Shown here one piece after another: positions 32,945 to 54,476 of a DNA stretch of 64,000 bases. A program made the position numbers and the translations under genes. The stretch lies in the NCBI RefSeq assembly GCF_024298885.1, contig NZ_CP101166.1, positions 3,223,149 through 3,287,148 on the forward strand. The letters run 5' to 3'. The notes below the pieces were generated by a model. The model was not told the origin of the DNA. It saw only the letters and a list, made by a program, of their open reading frames with translations, and searched no databases. Within the stretch, counting starts at the first letter, position 1. Every line of letters starts with the position of its first letter. This DNA is from Haloglomus halophilum (GTDB lineage: Archaea; Halobacteriota; Halobacteria; Halobacteriales; Haloarculaceae).

Positions 32945-33189
32945 TGCGCGGGACCGGATTTGAACCGGATCAAGACATTCCGGGCAGGCGGCGCTTCGCG
33001 CCGTTCCGGGCTGTGACTTGCAGGGTTGCAAATCCGGCCGTGCCCAGACACGTCTCTCACGTTCTTCGAGACGGTCATGCGCGGGACCGGATTTGAACCG
33101 GAGGAAGACGTGCTCACTTCGTTGCGCGCGTCTTCCAGGGTTCAAATCGGCCCTGCTCCTTCGCTCGGTCGCTACGCTCCCTCGCTCAG
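32945..33189 (-). repeat. Two foldback copies of the tRNA-Leu 3' end
   Basis: The last 24 bases of the tRNA-Leu gene (T-arm, 3' acceptor strand and discriminator) are repeated exactly at 32945-32968 and 33078-33101, in the tRNA's orientation. Each copy is paired with an inverted partial T-arm (33023-33045 and 33138-33153), so each ~75-100-base unit can fold on itself. The inner arms of the second unit also pair (GGAAGACG/CGTCTTCC). These are candidate att-site scars or a tRNA-derived structured repeat. Confidence 0.8.
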
Positions 33190-33273
33190 TGCGCGGGACC
33201 GGATTTGAACCGGCGGACTCCTACGAGACAAGGTCCTAAGCCTTGCGCCGTTTCCTGGCTTGGCTACCCGCGC
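33190..33273 (-). tRNA. tRNA-Leu (anticodon UAG)
   Basis: Full cloverleaf on the minus strand. The acceptor GCGCGGG pairs with CCCGCGC, with discriminator A. The D-arm GCC/GGC, the anticodon stem CAAGG/CCTTG around loop CTTAGGA (anticodon TAG) and a class II variable arm CTC/GAG are all present. The T-loop TTCAAAT is canonical. CCA is not encoded. No intron. Confidence 0.95.
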
Positions 33274-37778: not shown

Positions 37779-38417
37779 TTATTCGCTCAGCGGACGCGCA
37801 ACAACGGCAAGGTGGTCGTCGTGGGTGGGGTCCAGCCGTTCGGTCTCCAGCACCTCGTACCCCTTCCGGAGGTCGGACAGCACCTGGTCGAACACGTCGT
37901 CCGGGTCGGCCACCACGTCCTCGCTCCGGGCCTTCACCGAGAGCAGGAGCCGGCCATCCTCGCGGAGGAACCGGCGGTTCCGGAGCGCGACCGTTGCCTG
38001 CCCGCGCGTCGCCACGTCCTGCACCAGGGCGTCGACGGGTTCGACGACGTGTGCGTACGTCTCCGGTTCGCGGGCGTCCTTCAGCAGCGGAAAGAGGTTC
38101 GGCCGGGGCTCGGCGGCGTCCAGCAGGTCACGTGCGGGTCGGGGGGCGAACTCGACGGCGTAGGTGGGGCCAGCGAAGTCGGCGACGTGTGAGACGGTCG
38201 TCCCCGCGGCCGCGCCGAGGTAGAGGACCGTCTCGCCACCCGCCAGTCCCGTGTCCAGTCCCCGGCCGAGCATCGCACCGAGCTTCGACCGGCCGGTGTC
38301 CCACGCGCGCCAGTCGCCGTCGGTCGGCTCCCCGTAGACCGGCGGCCCGCGCGTGGCGAGCCGCTCCTCGCCGTCGAACGGCCGGCGCTCGACCCCCTCG
38401 GGCAGGGTCGGCGTCAC
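37779..38417 (-). CDS. flpA: Fibrillarin-like rRNA/tRNA 2'-O-methyltransferase
   Basis: A 212-aa catalytic subunit of C/D box RNPs that methylates RNA ribose 2'-OH. SAM-binding residues lie in ETVLYLGAAAGTTVSHVADF, then YAVEFAPR, then PLLKDAREPE, with the catalytic-region segment VDALVQDVA. Its GTG start overlaps the Nop5 stop (GTGA), ensuring matched synthesis of the two partners. Confidence 0.93.
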   Translation of the reverse strand: MTPTLPEGVERRPFDGEERLATRGPPVYGEPTDGDWRAWDTGRSKLGAMLGRGLDTGLAGGETVLYLGAAAGTTVSHVADFAGPTYAVEFAPRPARDLLDAAEPRPNLFPLLKDAREPETYAHVVEPVDALVQDVATRGQATVALRNRRFLREDGRLLLSVKARSEDVVADPDDVFDQVLSDLRKGYEVLETERLDPTHDDHLAVVARPLSE

Positions 38418-39295
38418 TCGTCGTCACCTCCGGTCGTTGCGTCGTCACCGTCGTCGCCCTTCCGCGCCCGGATGGTCGCGATGCGGTCACGGAGCTGTTC
38501 GTCCAGTACCGGCCGGCGCTCGCCGGTGTAGTGGTCGGCGCGAGCGGCGATAGCCAGCTTGCCGGCGAGCGCGCGCGCCGCCGACCCGCGGTCGTCGGGA
38601 TGTGTGTTCTGCACGGCCTCGTGGATGTAGATGACGCCATGCTTCGGCGACGGCGCCCGGCCGCGGAGGTGCGCGAACAGTGCCTCCTCCGCGCCGAGTA
38701 CCTGAAGCGTCCCCGAGGGCTTGCGCGCCAGCGTCTCCAGTCCACCGGCGAGCGCGATGAGCCGCGCGGCGAGCACGGGCCCCGCGAGTGCCGAGAGGTT
38801 GGGCGCGACCTCCGGGGCGGTTCGCTCGATGCTCGCACGGAGGTCGGCTGCCTCGTCGTCGAGGTCACGGACGCGCCGGGCGAGTTCGACTACGCGGCGC
38901 TCGTCTGGTTCCGGGTCGCGCTCGGCGAGTTCGCGGGCGAACTCGATGCCGGCGCCCGGGTCAGCGACCAGTGAACTTCCCCACTCGGCGACGCGCTCGG
39001 CGAGTTCGTTCGCGACCCGCTCGCAGTCGTCCATCGCCCGAATACTATGCTGCAACTGTCGGTCATCCGACCGTTCGTACTCCTGCACCGCGGCCCGCGT
39101 CGCGGCCATGCTCGCGTCGTGTAAGATTTCGTAATAATCGTTCTCGTCGGCAGCGAATCCCGACTCGACCGCGCGTGCTGGCCAGTCATCTGGGGTGTCC
39201 GCGGTGCCATCACGGATGGCCTCAGCGGCTGCTTCCTCGTCGTCGCGGTCGATCCCCTCGAACCAGCCTTCGTCCGAGGAAGCGGTGCCGTCCAT
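38414..39295 (-). CDS. nop5: Nop5/Nop56-58 family C/D RNP scaffold
   Basis: A 293-aa protein that bridges fibrillarin and L7Ae on C/D guide RNAs. A coiled-coil region spans about 135-170. The Nop domain begins at LSALAGPVLAARLIALAGGL and includes GTLQVLGAEEALFAHLRG and KHGVIYIHEAVQ. The N-terminal fibrillarin-binding domain is short and acidic, and the usual KKE tail is replaced by an Asp/Gly tail. First gene of the nop5-flpA unit. Confidence 0.93.
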   Translation of the reverse strand: MDGTASSDEGWFEGIDRDDEEAAAEAIRDGTADTPDDWPARAVESGFAADENDYYEILHDASMAATRAAVQEYERSDDRQLQHSIRAMDDCERVANELAERVAEWGSSLVADPGAGIEFARELAERDPEPDERRVVELARRVRDLDDEAADLRASIERTAPEVAPNLSALAGPVLAARLIALAGGLETLARKPSGTLQVLGAEEALFAHLRGRAPSPKHGVIYIHEAVQNTHPDDRGSAARALAGKLAIAARADHYTGERRPVLDEQLRDRIATIRARKGDDGDDATTGGDDE

Positions 39296-40717: not shown

Positions 40718-41215
40718 TCAGGATTCGTCGTCCGCTGCAGCGATGACATCCGCACGAAGTTCGTCGGATATCCAGAACCCCGCCTCGCGGAGGGCATCGA
40801 GTTCGGCCTCGATATCGAGGTTGCCGTGCTTTGCCTCGCGAAGAAGGATACCGATCACGCCTGTCACGGACAGGCCGTGCCGCCGCGCGACACGGCGACC
40901 ATCCCGCTCGTCGATCAGGAGCAAACCTGCCCCCTCGGTGACGGCGTAGCAGATTGCTGCTGTCTCGCCGATATCGAGTTCGTGGACAATCTCGACGAAG
41001 AGGTCGGACCGATCGACCGGAATGATCGTCAGGAACCCCTGCTCGCGTAGCTCTTGGAGCGCCTCCAGTCCCTCCTCACCCTCTGTGAGTTCGGTCCAGA
41101 CCTGCTCTGGGGCGGTGATACCTGAGAACTGTGACTCGAGAAGATCCAATCGGCCAATGAGCGCGAGGTTCAGTAGTGGAGACGTGTCGGCAACGATGAG
41201 CTCGTCACTGCGCAT
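40718..41215 (-). CDS. DUF3368 PIN-like toxin candidate
   Basis: A 165-aa protein with PIN-domain features: N-terminal Asp (IVADTSPLLNLALIG), a mid-protein Glu and Ala-rich helix (DIGETAAICYAVTEGAG) and the acidic LLIDERDGRRVARRHGL. DUF3368 proteins are commonly the RNase partner of UPF0175 antitoxins. The gene overlaps the UPF0175 gene by 11 bases, antitoxin first, as in toxin-antitoxin operons. Confidence 0.8.
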   Translation of the reverse strand: MRSDELIVADTSPLLNLALIGRLDLLESQFSGITAPEQVWTELTEGEEGLEALQELREQGFLTIIPVDRSDLFVEIVHELDIGETAAICYAVTEGAGLLLIDERDGRRVARRHGLSVTGVIGILLREAKHGNLDIEAELDALREAGFWISDELRADVIAAADDES

Positions 41216-41450
41216 ACTCGACATCCTCGGCGAGTTCCGACTCACCGTAGTGGCGGGGAATCTCGCGTTCGCCGAGGAGTTGCTGGAACTCTCGCTTCGA
41301 CATCCCGGCCAACGCGCGGGCCTTGCCGAACGAGAGCACGTCCTGGGAGTAGAGCGACACCGCCAGCTCCCGCTTCACCACCTCGGAGCGCTCACCCTCG
41401 GGAAGTTGGAGCGCCTCGTATACCTCGTCATCGATTTCTATGGTGGCCAT
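41205..41450 (-). CDS. UPF0175 antitoxin candidate
   Basis: An 81-aa protein with the UPF0175 pattern: N-terminal strand ATIEIDDEVYEALQLPEGER, then a helix-turn-helix around SFGKARALAGMSKREFQQLL and the end REIPRHYGESEL. It is predicted to bind DNA and neutralise the downstream PIN-like protein. Divergent from the PLD-NTPase gene. Confidence 0.82.
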   Translation of the reverse strand: MATIEIDDEVYEALQLPEGERSEVVKRELAVSLYSQDVLSFGKARALAGMSKREFQQLLGEREIPRHYGESELAEDVEYAQ

Positions 41451-44079: not shown

Positions 44080-45171
44080 TCAGAGACCCAGTTTGAAAAT
44101 CCGATCGCGATACTCCGACTCGACGTCCTCGTAGTAACTGTGGATGTAGTAGTCGATGCCGCCTGCTGACTCCCATCCACTAGTTCCCACGGTGTCTCCC
44201 CTCATGTATCGGATTAATTCACGGTTCATGTCCTCCTGAACACGCCAAAACGTGGTGAATCGATGTCGTCCGAAGTGCGATGTAACCCCTTGATGTTGTT
44301 CGGTTTCATCGTACTCTGGTCTGAAGTGCCGTTTCCATGCCGTATTCATGACCTCATCGTCGGTCTGTGTATTGCTCCGCTGGCTCAGGAACAGCCATGG
44401 CTCGCCGTTATCGGGCCGGATGAGGAGGTATCGAATGAGAATCCGTCGCAGCTCGTCGTCTATCGGGAGGACACGGGGACGTTTTGACTTGTTCCCCGAT
44501 CTGTCGTGGGGGATGTAGACGGCATCATCGTACTCACTGACGCGTGGTGCACTCCCCATCCGGTCGTAATGCTCCTGTACCTCCTGCTGGCGGATATTGA
44601 TCTCGCTGATCTTGATATTCGCAACTTCACTGGCCCTCAGTCCGAGCTTCAACTGCACCGCGATAATCGCCTGGTCGAAGATATGGTCCACGTCGGCCAG
44701 AATCTCACGAAGTCGGTCTAAGGATATCCGTGGAGGCTCTTTCACGCGTCCAGTCGAGAGGTCGACCTGGCGCTCAGCCAGTTTGAATGGATTGTAATCG
44801 ACCGAATGCGGGAATACGGAATCGTCCTGCCAGTACCGGTAGATTCGGTTCAGTCGAGTCAGCTTCTTGTTCGCTGTCCGTGGAGCGTTGTCGCGCTCCT
44901 CAAGTTCGATTTCGAGGAACCGTTTGACGTGGTCCTCGTTCGGACAGGTCGGCTGCCGACCCTGCTCAGCCATAAACTCCTTCCACTGCTGGATGACTCG
45001 TTCGTAGCCTCTTATCGTATCATCCGCCGGCCCGCTGGGCTCGAGATCGTTCTCGAAGAACGGCGCGAATGCGTCCTTCTTGAGTTCGCGGAACTTCTGA
45101 TCATACTGTTCGAGTGGATCGATTGTTTGACCGAATTTCTCTGCGATTTCTCTGCGTGTTTTGTCAGTCAT
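44080..45171 (-). CDS. Tyrosine-type site-specific integrase
   Basis: A 363-aa recombinase with an N-terminal SAM-like core-binding domain (about 50-115) and a catalytic domain. Catalytic residues visible are R179 (KLGLRASEVAN), a Lys near 230, H299-x-x-R302 (SHFGRHR) and a Tyr in GIDYYIHSYYED (Y341/342 or Y346/347). It is the last gene of a four-gene minus-strand operon starting at 46398, two bases after the preceding gene. Confidence 0.88.
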   Translation of the reverse strand: MTDKTRREIAEKFGQTIDPLEQYDQKFRELKKDAFAPFFENDLEPSGPADDTIRGYERVIQQWKEFMAEQGRQPTCPNEDHVKRFLEIELEERDNAPRTANKKLTRLNRIYRYWQDDSVFPHSVDYNPFKLAERQVDLSTGRVKEPPRISLDRLREILADVDHIFDQAIIAVQLKLGLRASEVANIKISEINIRQQEVQEHYDRMGSAPRVSEYDDAVYIPHDRSGNKSKRPRVLPIDDELRRILIRYLLIRPDNGEPWLFLSQRSNTQTDDEVMNTAWKRHFRPEYDETEQHQGVTSHFGRHRFTTFWRVQEDMNRELIRYMRGDTVGTSGWESAGGIDYYIHSYYEDVESEYRDRIFKLGL

Positions 45172-45173
45172 GG

Positions 45174-45677
45174 TTATCGCTTGTCGTTCTGTGAGAGCTT
45201 CTTCGCCCAGACCTCGCTGGGGTAGTCGTACTCGACGACCGCCATGTGTACTGGATGATAGACATGGGGATGCTCGGTATGCCAGAGCAGCCAGGAGTAG
45301 AACTCCTCTATCGGCTGGAAGTACTCGAAGTAGACCGTTTGGAGCTTCCGTGTGTGGCTCTGCCGCCCGATAGAACCGTCACGCAGCGCCCGGAGGAAGC
45401 CAGCGACGTGCTCAGGATCGCAGAGGGCGTGGTGCCGGTCGATGTCGCTCAGGTGGTCTGCAAGATACCGACCCGCTTTCTCGTACCGGGTTCGTGTCGC
45501 ATCTGAATCGAATTTCTCTGTCTTGACTTCGGCGAACTCCGCCCAGGTGTCCTCACCAGCGTAATCCCCCGCGTAGTTGGCGAGCTGGTACCGCTGTGGC
45601 ACCTGCTCGAGGCGCTTGTAGACCCCCATCCGGTCCTTGACATCTTGCGAGAGCGTACGCGCTGTTTCCCCCGTCAC
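45174..45677 (-). CDS. SAM-like core-binding domain protein of the integrase operon
   Basis: A 167-aa protein without catalytic residues. The central part (TRTRYEKAGRYLADHLSDID, then PEHVAGFLRAL and SHTRKLQTVYFEYFQPIEEF) reads like the N-terminal DNA-binding domain of phage integrases standing alone. It could help the integrase bind its arms or core. The GTG start overlaps the upstream stop (GTGA), and two bases separate it from the integrase gene. Confidence 0.7.
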   Translation of the reverse strand: MTGETARTLSQDVKDRMGVYKRLEQVPQRYQLANYAGDYAGEDTWAEFAEVKTEKFDSDATRTRYEKAGRYLADHLSDIDRHHALCDPEHVAGFLRALRDGSIGRQSHTRKLQTVYFEYFQPIEEFYSWLLWHTEHPHVYHPVHMAVVEYDYPSEVWAKKLSQNDKR

Positions 45678-46129
45678 TGCTGGCTCTCCTCTAGGCTGTT
45701 TGTTGCGAGGTGATAGCCGTCACCAGTCTGACGTAGCTTCAGTCCTTCCAGCTCTTCCAGGTGCTCCGTCACTCGACCAGGGACCGTGTTGATTACGTGC
45801 TGGACGATCTCTTCGTACGAGGCTCCAGGGTTGGCGCCGATGTACTCGAGTATTTCCTGCTGTTCGTCTCTGTAGAGCGCATCCTCGAGCTCCTGAATCC
45901 GTTCACGAGCGCGCTTCAGTTCATCTCGGAGGTTATTGCGCTGCTTCCGTAACTCTCGGACCTCGTCCCCTTCTGCCGTAGCGGGAGCATCGAACTTCTT
46001 CAGTCCAGCTTCAATCATGGCCTCGGCGAAGGCGGACCGAGAGCGGAACCCCAGTTCCTCGCATCGCGACTCCCAGCGTTCCATCTGCTCGTCACTGGGG
46101 TAGGTCGCGACCTGGTTCGTCTCCGTCAT
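45674..46129 (-). CDS. RHH / coiled-coil / winged-helix protein of the integrase operon
   Basis: A 151-aa protein. The N-terminal helices (SDEQMERWESRCEELGF, then SAFAEAMIEAGLKK) resemble a ribbon-helix-helix-like domain. A charged coiled coil spans about 55-90, followed by a C-terminal winged helix (EILEYIGANPGASYEEIVQH). It is probably the DNA-binding regulator or directionality factor of the recombinase cassette. Confidence 0.72.
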   Translation of the reverse strand: MTETNQVATYPSDEQMERWESRCEELGFRSRSAFAEAMIEAGLKKFDAPATAEGDEVRELRKQRNNLRDELKRARERIQELEDALYRDEQQEILEYIGANPGASYEEIVQHVINTVPGRVTEHLEELEGLKLRQTGDGYHLATNSLEESQQ

Positions 46130-46155
46130 GGTCTGAGAGCGGTCATCTGAGCTGG

Positions 46156-46398
46156 TTAGGGGCGGTCCGATCCCTCGAGACTGTGAGGTTCCAGGTGCAG
46201 TTCTCGATTAACCACCTGGACGACTATTGCGTCGCTCTCCTCCGGCTCAACCCCGAGACGGAGGAGTTGAGCTGTACTCAAGAAGATCGCTACCCCGACA
46301 ACCTCTCCTTGCGGTCCCTGGCATAGGGGGACGAGACTCCCACAGTTACCAACCGGAGTCTCCCCGGATTGGGGTAGGTCACGAACGCGCTCACTCAT
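46156..46398 (-). CDS. Small hypothetical protein heading the integrase operon
   Basis: An 80-aa protein starting MSERVRDLPQSGETPVG and containing a beta-rich stretch (GEVVGVAIFLSTAQLLRLGV). No family recognised. It precedes the regulator gene by 26 bases in the same direction and lies behind an inverted repeat at 46440-46463. An ATG at 46446 is possible but would cover that repeat. Confidence 0.6.
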   Translation of the reverse strand: MSERVRDLPQSGETPVGNCGSLVPLCQGPQGEVVGVAIFLSTAQLLRLGVEPEESDAIVVQVVNRELHLEPHSLEGSDRP

Positions 46399-46439
46399 TG
46401 TGACCCTCCAGTGTATTGTCGCACGCGTGGGTCCGCCAG

Positions 46440-46463
46440 CGAACAACGACGAATTGTTGTTCG
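46440..46463. promoter_or_regulatory. Inverted repeat upstream of the integrase operon
   Basis: CGAACAAC (46440-46447) and GTTGTTCG (46456-46463) are exact inverted arms with an 8-base spacer, 42 bases before the first gene of the operon. Likely operator for one of its two DNA-binding proteins. AT-rich sequence beyond 46500 could hold the basal promoter. Confidence 0.55.
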
Positions 46464-46799
46464 AAATCTGATTGTTCAGTGGTTCCTGATTTGTTGTCCA
46501 TTCTGCACGGGACGCACGCGCTCCAGACGGATATATTTAAAATAGTTGACTGTTTGGTGGGGTAATGAATGTTTCTTCTAATCCGCCAAAATATGGCTCA
46601 GAGTGAGTATTTACGCCATCCCGAGCTGCCCGTGCGAAAAATATATAAAAATTCTGTTAATATGTGGTATACCTCGCCGCTGTGAGTGCCGGCTTAGTCC
46701 AAAAGGAGTAGAGTACAGGATAATCTCATCCAATATTACGACAAGGACTAACACACAGTCGCCCCTCGCCTTGGTCATGTCGAAGTGCTGGGTGACTAC
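46464..46799. other. AT-rich intergenic region
   Basis: About 335 bases of low-GC sequence with several TATA-like runs (TATATTTAAAATAG near 46531; AAATATATAAAAATT near 46638). No convincing gene. It likely contains promoters for the leftward integrase operon and may mark the edge of an inserted segment. Confidence 0.5.
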
Positions 46800-47289: not shown

Positions 47290-47493
47290 ATGTCGATGTA
47301 TCACAGAGAACCTGATGTGCAGACCGGGAGACCGTCCCTCGGAAGCGGACGGCCGGTGTATAGGCACCGACCACCCGGCTGCCATCTAAGCAGCATGAAG
47401 TCAGAAGCAATTCGCCGACAAAGTCCTGTCGGCCACGACGCGGTAGAGGCAGAGAACACAACCAACATGCGGCCCACGGAGGTGCGGTCATGA
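47290..47493 (+). CDS. Possible small leader ORF coupled to the HNH gene
   Basis: A 67-aa ORF whose stop overlaps the HNH start (ATGA), the usual sign of coupled translation. The protein is Arg/Pro/Ser-rich with no recognised domain. An internal ATG at 47395 would give a 32-aa peptide with better composition. It could be a chance frame. Confidence 0.35.
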   Translation: MSMYHREPDVQTGRPSLGSGRPVYRHRPPGCHLSSMKSEAIRRQSPVGHDAVEAENTTNMRPTEVRS

Positions 47494-48131
47494 GCGTGGA
47501 TAACCGCGATGAGGTGCTGGAGCGCGACGGTCGCCAGTGCCGGATTTGCGGTGCCGCCGACCGCCAACTCGAGGTCCACCATGCCACCCCGCAGTCAGAC
47601 GGTGGTAGTGACGACCCCGAGAACCTCCTCACCCTCTGTGACCGGTGCCACACGCTGGTCCACAGTCGCACGCGCGAAGAGGAGGTCCCACTCGACCCAG
47701 AAGAGGCCCGGGTCGACATGACCCAGAGCGACCTCGCGATTATCAAGGCGCTCTCCGAGGTCGGAGCATCCACCCCGCCCGAACTCGAGGAGGTGGTCCG
47801 ATTCAGTGAGCCGACCGTGCGGCGGCGCCTCCACGCGCTGACGGTCGACGACATTGTCGCCCCACGCCTCGATGGCAAGTGGGACTTCGCCGAGGAGGTC
47901 AGCCGGTCCGCTGTCGGCCGGTGGCCGGAGAAGTCCGCCCGCGCAGCGCGGTACGCGCGAAACGAGGTCATGCGGCGGATGTTCGAGTCCGGCATGACGA
48001 AGTCGGAAATCGCCGACATAGTCGGACTCGATGACCGGACGGTCGGTCACAACATCACGCAGGCACGGGCCCTGCGCCCACCGCTCGAACCGATGACCGA
48101 CATTCACCTCTCGGTGGTTGACGTAGAGTAG
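47490..48131 (+). CDS. HNH endonuclease fused to helix-turn-helix domains
   Basis: A 213-aa protein. Residues 1-60 form a zinc-supported HNH site: C17-x2-C20, H30/H31, N45, C50-x2-C53-H54 and H58. Residues ~75-135 look like a winged helix (DLAIIKALSEVGASTPPELE, then EPTVRRRLHAL). Residues ~150-200 hold a second HTH (MRRMFESGMTKSEIADIVGL). It may be a sequence-directed nuclease from a mobile element or a defence nuclease. Confidence 0.82.
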   Translation: MSVDNRDEVLERDGRQCRICGAADRQLEVHHATPQSDGGSDDPENLLTLCDRCHTLVHSRTREEEVPLDPEEARVDMTQSDLAIIKALSEVGASTPPELEEVVRFSEPTVRRRLHALTVDDIVAPRLDGKWDFAEEVSRSAVGRWPEKSARAARYARNEVMRRMFESGMTKSEIADIVGLDDRTVGHNITQARALRPPLEPMTDIHLSVVDVE

Positions 48132-49132: not shown

Positions 49133-49301
49133 GGTCGACGACAGTCTGGACTCTGGCGACCGGGTCGATGTCTCCAACTCCGACTATGCGACCCAGCCGA
49201 TTCTGCCCAAGAAGTTCCGGGATTACATCTACACACTATATCCAGTTCTCGAGGATGGGTTGATTCACCTGCCGTACTGGTTCTACCTCATGCTCTGCTG
49301 A
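49133..49301 (+). pseudogene. Deletion remnant of the AAA ATPase found intact at 52914-54476
   Basis: Translation of this stretch gives VDVSNSDYATQPILPKKFRD, then YIYTLYPVLEDG joined directly to LIHLPYWFYLMLC and stop. The first part matches the middle, and the second the extreme C-terminus, of the intact protein on the opposite strand. So roughly 300 codons were lost internally and the 5' half is missing. Two copies of the gene family therefore existed here, in opposite orientation. Confidence 0.85.
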
Positions 49302-52913: not shown

Positions 52914-54476
52914 TCAGCAGAGCATCAGATAGAACCAGTATGGCAGGTGTATCACCCCATCCTCGACGGCAATCGCTCGGTCGTCGCTGACTGTATCGCC
53001 GGTGAGCACGATCCCGAATGGGGCGTTGTAGCTGTCGACGAACTCACGGATGGGTGCCGTAGCCTCGTCCATTGGTGGGCGATAGGCCAGCCCGACGGGC
53101 ACGGGCGTGCCGTCGACCTCGAAGACGAAGTCGACCGTGCCGTCGCGTGCCCGCCAGAAGCTGACCGCGGGCGTGCTCTCGCCTCCCTGTGCGGCATCGA
53201 TTCCGTAGGCGAACCGCATCGTATGATCGAACGCGGCGACGCGAGCCAGCGCAGCCTCGCGGTCGAAATCACGTAGTACCGTCTCTGCGCCCCCATCAGT
53301 AAGCGCCGTGACCAGCCCCGTATCGCGCAAGTAGAGGCGAACTGATCTGGGACGGCTGTTGTCGTACTCGGTGACGCCGGTCAGGAGGTAGAGTTCCTCG
53401 AGGGCAGGGAGGTAGCTGTCCGTGAGCGTCCGGCGGTCGACATCGAAGAGGTCCGCCAACCGCTGGTACCGGACCGGCTCGGCACCGTGGTTGCGGGCGG
53501 CCAGCGCACACAGCCGCTCCAGATCGGCGATGGTCTGGACCGAATCGAAACCCGGGACATCTTGGTAGAGCGCGTCCCGGACATCCTCTCGAAGTTCGGT
53601 GTACGCACTCGCATCGAGAGCCGCTGCGGATTCGACCGGGCCGTCGAGCGCGTAACTGATTGTGCCGCCCATAGCGAGGTAGTGGACCACCTGTGACTGG
53701 ATGCGTCGTTCGACATCGGCTACCCGGTCGTACTGCGCCTGGAGGGTCGCTACGAGATTATCGAGATTCCCACTGTCGAGGGCCTTCGGCAGACTCCCTT
53801 CGCCCTCGCGAATCGGTGTCGGACTGACACGGGTGTCGCCGTCCTCGAGCTCCGGATACAGTGTGTAGATGTAATCTCGGAACTTCTCGGGTAGGATCGG
53901 CTGGGTTGCATAGTCGGAGTCGGCGATGTCGACCCGGTCGAGTTCGCGGTCGATCTGGATACCGGCGTTGGCGGTCACCACGATGTGCCGCTCGGGCCTT
54001 GCAGCCAGCATATCCGCGACCGGTGTCCCCCAGCCCTCTACGGTCGGTTTGCTTGGATGCTCGACGAGGTGGACGTCGTCGAGGAACACGAACTGTGGTG
54101 TCGGATCGTCGGCCCGGCCGAGGATGCGGCTCTCGTAGTAGCGGATGGCTTGTCGGAGGCCCTCATCGGACCGGAGCTGGTAGAGTGGATCCGCGTCGAA
54201 GGGTATGTAGCAGAACTGCTCCGGGGCCGCTCCTTGGTCGATACTATGGTGGATGAACTGCTTGATAAGCGTGGTCTTGCCGACACCACGACGGCCGACG
54301 AGCCCGAGAAGTCGCTGATCCTCGAACTGGCTGTCGGGCTGATCGGGCCGGGCCAGATGGTAGAAGTCACTCTTGGTGCGGGCGGGCAACTCGATGGTAT
54401 CCGCCCCGGAGTCCCACCAAGGGTTGTGCTCGCCGAGCGCTCGGAGGAGCGCGTCTCCGCCCGCGTCGAACGACAT
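52914..54476 (-). CDS. AAA ATPase with DUF4143-like C-terminal domain
   Basis: A 520-aa protein. Walker A GRRGVGKTTL (about 61-70), Walker B FVFLDDVHL (about 128-136), sensor HIVVTANAG, then the YATQPILPEKFRDYI segment typical of DUF4143-type archaeal ATPases. A winged helix lies at about 325-375 (ADLFDVDRRTLTDSYLPALE). The C-terminal nuclease-like domain keeps FWRARDGTVDFVFEVDG but lacks the usual EVK lysine (VPVGLAY). Predicted DNA-dependent ATPase of a mobile element or defence type. A remnant second copy is at 49133-49301. Confidence 0.82.
   Translation of the reverse strand: MSFDAGGDALLRALGEHNPWWDSGADTIELPARTKSDFYHLARPDQPDSQFEDQRLLGLVGRRGVGKTTLIKQFIHHSIDQGAAPEQFCYIPFDADPLYQLRSDEGLRQAIRYYESRILGRADDPTPQFVFLDDVHLVEHPSKPTVEGWGTPVADMLAARPERHIVVTANAGIQIDRELDRVDIADSDYATQPILPEKFRDYIYTLYPELEDGDTRVSPTPIREGEGSLPKALDSGNLDNLVATLQAQYDRVADVERRIQSQVVHYLAMGGTISYALDGPVESAAALDASAYTELREDVRDALYQDVPGFDSVQTIADLERLCALAARNHGAEPVRYQRLADLFDVDRRTLTDSYLPALEELYLLTGVTEYDNSRPRSVRLYLRDTGLVTALTDGGAETVLRDFDREAALARVAAFDHTMRFAYGIDAAQGGESTPAVSFWRARDGTVDFVFEVDGTPVPVGLAYRPPMDEATAPIREFVDSYNAPFGIVLTGDTVSDDRAIAVEDGVIHLPYWFYLMLC

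Follow-up and report, generated by a model that had tools for sequence, protein, structure and literature searches.

A haloarchaeal tyrosine recombinase encoded beside a free copy of its own core-binding domain, and the insertion of its element inside nop5

The locus described here is a four-gene cassette (SM, WH, CB, and INT) of Haloglomus halophilum, located in a stretch of 64,000 nucleotides (the window; positions 3,223,149 to 3,287,148 of contig NZ_CP101166.1, C1 below). INT belongs to the tyrosine recombinase family, and CB is a free copy of its N-terminal core-binding domain. Among described systems, SNJ2 of the haloarchaeal pleolipoviruses consists of the integrase IntSNJ2 and the accessory proteins Orf2 and Orf3, which aid recombination (available sections of PMC8371274 and PMC5867852). 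The layout is alike: a haloarchaeal tyrosine recombinase gene shares an operon with two small upstream accessory genes, one encoding a coiled-coil and one a MarR-like protein (same sections of PMC8371274). Insertion into the 5′ end of a housekeeping gene is known from the integrative and conjugative element (ICE) SXT at prfC and from the Vibrio dusA islands, which re-supply the 5′ end of the gene; for dusA, a new promoter and N-terminus have been shown experimentally (available sections of PMC8409611). Archaeal integrases that target protein-coding genes are known as well (parts of PMC6563490; PMC8371274, section 19). The attachment (att) sites of the thaumarchaeal elements are in 3′-distal gene regions and are generally short (PMC6563490), and PMC8371274 asks whether att sites in protein genes have dyad symmetry.

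These systems differ from the Haloglomus locus in several respects. SXT and the dusA islands are bacterial and use unrelated accessory factors, and the altered N-terminus of dusA contrasts with about 90 codons of a true orthologue here (up to 376 in mutL). For thaumarchaeal and other archaeal gene-targeting elements, the available sections describe neither an element-borne replacement of hundreds of coding bases nor a free core-binding subunit. The archaeal XerA, XerC, and pNOB8-type recombinases have the same two-domain build as INT, and XerA_Arch (NF040815) is the best curated match of INT, but the score of 65.5 bits is far below the equivalog cut-off of 220 bits, and INT is on a mobile element. 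To our knowledge, XerA works without accessories. The core-binding fold is also used without recombination, by the repressors SroF and YopR. The SroF and YopR chains (PDB 9rd5, 9rgl, 8bj6) comprise about 310–320 residues, whereas CB is an isolated N-terminal domain. Gene-end replacement is thus already known in bacteria; our searches of one literature collection found no description of a CB/WH/INT trio, of a free core-binding partner, or of nop5 as a target.

The cassette and its free core-binding domain

The four open reading frames (ORFs) lie on the minus strand at 44080–46446, and all were verified. In transcription order they are:

46156–46446, minus strand: SM, small ORF of 96 amino acids (aa); a likelier ATG at 46398 gives 80 aa
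45674–46129, minus strand: WH, 151-aa RHH-like/coiled-coil/winged-helix protein
45174–45677, minus strand: CB, 167-aa free core-binding domain, partial paralogue of the INT N-terminal domain
44080–45171, minus strand: INT, 363-aa tyrosine recombinase, core-binding and catalytic domains

SM and WH are separated by 26 bp, WH and CB overlap by 4 bp (spacing −4), and CB and INT are separated by 2 bp; the GTG start of CB overlaps the stop of WH as GTGA. The original prediction, made by a model from the letters of the window, had proposed a four-gene operon with GTGA or near-zero spacing, and the ORFs confirm it.

INT matches Phage_integrase (PF00589) with 38.4 bits (cut-off 27.1); its matches to the SAM-like N-terminal domains PF02899 and PF13495 are below cut-off. 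Residues R179, K228, H299, R302, and Y342, which we take to be the catalytic R-K-HxxR-Y set, are invariant in 59 of 59 aligned INTs (fragmentary or frameshifted sequences are left out of the alignments: L041 and L090 for CB, L041 and L074 for INT). By its family match and these residues, INT is a member of the tyrosine recombinase family, and strand exchange is predicted.

As a single sequence, CB has no match in Pfam, PHROGs, or NCBIfam. As a profile of 59 proteins, it aligns in hhalign with the N-terminal 150 residues of 59 INTs over 110 columns (probability 99%, E 2.3e-18), and the two share the motifs GRHhA.. and PH.YnP..A. Control profile comparisons of CB with the catalytic part of INT and with WH gave nothing. 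In addition, the CB profile hidden Markov model (HMM) matches the INT N-domains in five of six stretches that encode INT without a detected CB, and Phage_int_SAM_1 (PF02899) matches six of 17 CB family members (best E 0.0034). CB is a free second copy of INT's own N-terminal core-binding domain. The standalone core-binding-like (SAM-like) domain of the original prediction is thereby borne out, including the similarity to integrase N-terminal domains on which that claim turned.

The AlphaFold2 model of CB (pLDDT 87.1, pTM 0.84) has integrase and recombinase core-binding domains as its top matches in VIA-align, with the Brujita integrase at Z 9.8 and the N-domain of a Haloarcula integrase (3nrw) at Z 9.5 (2.3 Å over 102 residues); Cre and XerA are also among the best. 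The first 29 matches (Z 7.1–9.8) are integrases, recombinases, and integrase-like repressors, except 2kob, which is not so titled. Foldseek on the CB model alone is weak (best E 0.9), and helical models gain such Z values by chance more readily. Therefore, the fold match backs the profile match and is not independent proof of it. The CB profile searched against solved structures gave nothing meaningful (best E 0.011, an unrelated protein).

The structures of SroF and YopR are among these matches (Z 7.8–7.9), and CB shares an operon with INT and has no catalytic domain, as would be expected if CB were an integrase-fold DNA-binding repressor controlling the int operon or the maintenance of the element. 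We consider this chief rival unlikely. The SroF and YopR matches are not better than Cre or XerA and cover only the common core-binding domain, and CB is a partial duplicate of the adjoining INT, always found beside it (60/60). With moderate confidence, we instead take CB to be a non-catalytic recombination partner of INT.

Being a truncated paralogue of its neighbour, CB could also be a remnant, namely a decaying 5′ piece that remained after int was duplicated or after an element integrated at an earlier int. However, the CB frame is open, its position is kept, and it is strongly conserved across many genera: 12 residues are invariant in 30 sequences, and 57 or more of 59 share G18, P88, H138, P142, A146, and W157. 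The motifs conserved in CB are also distinct from those of INT. A decaying fragment is thus very improbable.

WH consists of an N-terminal RHH-like region, a coiled coil, and a winged helix (HTH_24 match, E 0.0044). NikA-like matches occur in four of 13 WH relatives and matches to the TraM DNA-binding domain also in four of 13, all of them weak. The AlphaFold model of WH (pLDDT 67.6) is too poor for structure search, the RHH region included. SM has no family match in Pfam, PHROGs, or NCBIfam; to the eye its C-terminal half is presumably AbrB-like.

The layout that the cassette shares with SNJ2 raises the possibility that it belongs to the same family (IntSNJ2 with Orf2 and Orf3). The review criterion for an SNJ2-type integrase is 30% identity to IntSNJ2 across 60% of the length (available sections of PMC8371274), whereas INT and the SNJ2-type integrase of HHPV4 give no significant alignment (best E 0.57). 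HMMs of CB and WH match nothing at E ≤ 1 in 31 SNJ2-type loci (not sorted by carriage of Orf3), and SNJ2-type integrases are preceded by an Orf2-like coiled coil of about 111 residues, a fold different from the core-binding domain of CB. SNJ2 also targets tRNA genes and has a viral carrier, whereas the cassette sites are inside protein genes. We rejected SNJ2 membership, to which we give scarcely any weight.

The nop5 site and other target genes

The junction between element and chromosome, and the genes around it, are as follows:

37779–38417: fibrillarin, follows nop5
38414–39025, minus strand: native 3′ part of nop5 (aNOP56), 86% identity to G391; fibrillarin next
39026–39295, minus strand: element-supplied 5′ part of nop5, about 90 codons, 67% nucleotide identity to G391
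39026–39034, minus strand: att core ATGGACGAC, element/chromosome junction, inside nop5 at codons 88–90
39040–39047, minus strand: left arm TAGTATTC of the inverted repeat that flanks the attP core, as reconstructed
39035–64000, no strand: in-window part of the 74,551-bp element, running on to C1:3336733; lower GC

The element spans 74,551 bp, from the core at window 39026–39034 to a far core at C1:3336733 on the same contig. Its GC content is 59.6%, compared with 69% on either side, and the lower-GC DNA begins at about 39.0 kb in the window. The window INT and its four nearest relatives (L031–L034) are all upstream of nop5–fibrillarin, and a second, truncated copy of nop5 is found on the far side; L034 is at a contig end, with its far end out of sight. 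In the five elements with both ends (G389, G319, G300, G336, and G000, the window's own genome), the displaced copy covers roughly the first 90 codons and breaks at the core, and the homology of intact and displaced copies ends at ATGGACGAC or a near variant of it.

In G391, a genome of the same genus, the genes of the G000 far flank (C1:3340494-3346656) are present in order at 73–94% identity and end 1.9 kb upstream of an unbroken nop5; the nop5 site of G391 is called empty by gene order only, and a cassette elsewhere in G391 is outside the scope of this call. The working nop5 of G000 is 86% identical to that of G391 after the core and 67% before it (nucleotides), and the displaced copy is 86% identical. 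G392, also of this genus, has a native-type nop5 before the core (82% to G391, 72% to G000). The switch of identity at the core, together with the native-like displaced copy, indicates that the working nop5 is a chimera, with codons 1 to about 90 from the element and the rest native. The window nop5 ORF is intact (293 aa) and its reading frame is kept. Traits of gene-end replacement as in SXT and the dusA islands are found here, namely an att site inside a gene, a lost end supplied by the element, and a preserved frame. On this comparison, insertion inside nop5 with exchange of the gene end is nearly certain, and the host's original 5′ end is the copy that has been moved 74.6 kb away and has decayed.

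Homologous recombination can copy short stretches of core genes, and the far-end fragment could in principle be a paralogue or a chance fragment, with no insertion inside nop5. We regard this as hardly conceivable, because five elements break within a few bases of each other, the gene order of G391 is undisturbed, and the identity switches at the core.

The original prediction had proposed a search of the flanks for direct repeats marking att sites. The element ends are indeed two copies of a nop5 piece, one of them outside the window; direct repeats sought in the window alone give no att pair, because the far end lies beyond it. ARAGORN, run on 60 loci, found no tRNA gene beside the INT end, and the usual archaeal target was dropped.

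An attP-like sequence can be reconstructed from the ends. The arm TAGTATTC is left of the core in all five elements, and a right arm, GAATACTA, completes an inverted repeat with a spacing of 19–21 bp in G389, G319, and G336. The attB sequence is without TAGTATTC and GAATACTA. The arms are candidate binding sites for accessory proteins, and they speak to the question of dyad symmetry raised above.

The other nop5-site elements are about 5.4, 14.1, 15.8, and 21.0 kb in size, as calculated from coordinates. That of L032 (about 5.4 kb) is a minimal natural element, in which the two target-piece copies enclose WH-CB-INT and a few small genes. Halorubrum californiense and Halobellus captivus are among the carriers of a cassette at the nop5 site. 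The 14-kb element of G389 (L115:4645-18957) keeps both att ends; CB and INT are not found in the G389 genome, and the integration genes of this element seem to be gone.

Repeats were searched in 33 loci (31 further family loci, L031, and L033) by comparing the INT side with up to about 46 kb of the other side, less at contig ends. Nine were assigned: L031 and L033 at nop5 (for L031, the repeat is visible by tblastn only), L072, L038, L055, L056, L062, L059, and L081. The target identities are from NCBIfam and Pfam, several of them below equivalog cut-offs. In MutS, the displaced part is the 3′ end (aa 751–929), in the same split-and-replace pattern as in nop5; in MutL, it is aa 315–690, with an element of about 5.1 kb. 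At three MutY loci, a 3′ fragment is beyond INT; on the far side, two of these loci have the full gene, of 316 and 326 aa, and the third has a frame of 416 aa. A beta-CASP nuclease gene and an FAD-dependent oxidoreductase gene are split and replaced in this way as well. Plus-strand repeat matches were left unassigned in L040, L063, L084, L046, and L054; the one in L054 is a dispersed repeat that matches just as well on the minus strand. In the INT tree, the INTs at nop5 form one clade (100/99), which spans two host families, and those at mutY form another (100/97), indicating that the target tracks the integrase and not the host.

Two side observations concern these sites. The element of L059 (about 5.1 kb) is another minimal natural element, with WH-CB-INT and a few small genes between target-piece copies. 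In L065, L066, L068, L069, and L072, the stop codon of INT overlaps, or lies very close to, that of a convergent chromosomal gene (mutS, or an ATP-grasp type by eye), and the att region there may therefore include the end of int.

Spread, history, and a model of the module

A search of 391 haloarchaeal genomes detected CB in 56, its own included, and the named relatives found are haloarchaea throughout. We fetched 60 loci, 59 from other genomes and one that is the second copy of the window's own genome; this set excludes fragments in G092, G166, and G176 and an additional piece in G260. In every one of the 60 loci, INT is directly 3′ of CB and in the same orientation (truncated in L041, frameshifted in L074), with a spacing of −11 to +62 bp. 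Conversely, CB adjoins 59 of the 60 near-full-length INTs (E ≤ 1e-60, counted by eye from match tables; in G384 and G166, only part of CB is matched), the exception being G006. The original prediction had asked for conserved gene order, with unlinked genes counting against it. For CB and INT the order holds throughout; WH precedes CB in only 40 of 61 loci (HMM), and SM-like genes, weakly matching and on the same strand upstream of WH, are seen in only seven of 60 relatives, a loose conservation.

Three distant INTs (G021, G326, and G375; 31–32% identity) have WH directly before INT and no CB, and they fall outside all CB-bearing INTs in the tree (100/100, midpoint root). Because these nearest CB-less INTs show WH followed by INT, CB probably arose by partial duplication of int. 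In the simplest history, WH-INT would have come first, CB would have been added by that duplication, and WH would later have been lost in some lines.

The window's own genome has a second CB-INT pair (L064; G000:C1:2156762-2169190) without WH. A tRNA-Val gene is about 1.9 kb beyond its INT, and no repeat was found within about 46 kb.

In the model that we propose, a haloarchaeal integrative element of 74.6 kb would have the cassette as its integration module. The element would form a circle, and INT would pair attP with the core in nop5 and carry out strand exchange. The element-borne copy of the first ~90 codons would then re-complete the cut gene, and the host 5′ end would be shifted to the far end. 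CB would be a non-catalytic partner that binds next to INT on att DNA, with the inverted attP arms TAGTATTC and GAATACTA as one candidate site, and that helps to assemble or orient the complex. WH may bend or bridge DNA, regulate the operon, or both. As a whole, this explanation (an integration module at the nop5 site, with CB derived from int, partnering INT at att, and with WH as an accessory) is in our judgment likely. The interpretation in the original prediction is supported in part, and the multi-protein recombination complex that it suggested is hypothetical. A more specific version is offered tentatively, and is rather doubtful as it stands: in a mixed synapse, INT protomers would occupy the cleaved core and the catalytically empty CB the outer attP arms, with CB occupancy setting direction in place of an unrelated Xis-type factor. 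If true, such a synapse would explain how these elements settle deep in core coding sequences and re-complete them.

Several observations weigh against the proposed model. WH is absent from 21 of 61 loci (HMM), and the CB-less INT of G006 falls inside the CB-bearing family, indicating that neither WH nor CB is strictly indispensable. The right attP arm is clear in only three of five elements and degenerate in G000 and G300. No gene-fragment repeat within about 46 kb could be assigned in 24 of the 33 loci, and other family members may therefore use short or intergenic sites. Finally, excision was not seen: searches of phages, plasmids, and viral contigs, at the limits applied, gave no circular form. 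INT has no match in phages at 1e-5, CB none in plasmids at 0.01, and none of 47 pattern matches of CB in viral contigs was confirmed; WH has just weak, unrelated matches in phages (E 0.008–4). One partial INT is on a Haloarcula marina plasmid (35.6% over 53%).

Leader, cargo, and significance

Two features precede the operon:

46440–46463, no strand: inverted repeat CGAACAAC-8 bp-GTTGTTCG, 8-bp arms, in the operon leader; candidate operator, not conserved
46530–46549, minus strand: candidate TATA-like stretch ahead of the operon, identified by eye

The inverted repeat overlaps the TTG start of the 96-aa SM ORF; since SM more likely starts at the ATG at 46398, the repeat falls in the leader. 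It is present ahead of the operon as originally noted, but the 10 relatives examined lack it in front of their copies of the operon, and an operator role is disfavoured for this lack of conservation. Inverted pairs with seven-base arms are expected by chance at 0.48 per kb, and the repeat could be such an occurrence.

The element carries a BREX-type defence cluster at C1:3286753-3310116 (window 63605 onwards; L112, L113), with BrxHII (1570 bits), PglX (1736 bits), two BrxC/PglY-type ATPases, and PglZ; a TmtA-like large protein is alongside. With this cluster inside the element, the recombination module would move immunity.

Other features of the window are as follows. A 28-nt repeat (33078–33105 and 33190–33217) corresponds to the 3′ end of a tRNA-Leu gene (33189–33273, minus strand) and recurs 112 bp past the gene, resembling the scar of an earlier integration event. 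The stretches 49157–49301 and 52914–53940 are inverted and 86–91% alike (arms of 102 and 53 nt), apparently a gene fragment in the opposite orientation to the 520-aa gene at 52914–54476. At 47490–48131, an HNH domain near that of IscB (NF040563, 65 bits, below cut-off) is followed by helix-turn-helix domains. A UPF0175/DUF3368 pair at 40718–41450 has what we take to be the look of a VapBC-like toxin–antitoxin system.

The module is widespread among haloarchaea, and its accessory protein is a visible derivative of the recombinase. Since att sites, an empty site, and minimal natural elements of about 5 kb are available, the directionality of an archaeal integrase becomes directly testable. Archaeal elements reside in core repair and ribonucleoprotein genes (nop5, mutS, mutL, and mutY) and replace roughly 60 to 380 codons, so that the host genes are mosaics. 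Such mosaics matter for phylogeny and gene annotation and, in the case of the repair genes, possibly for mutation rate.

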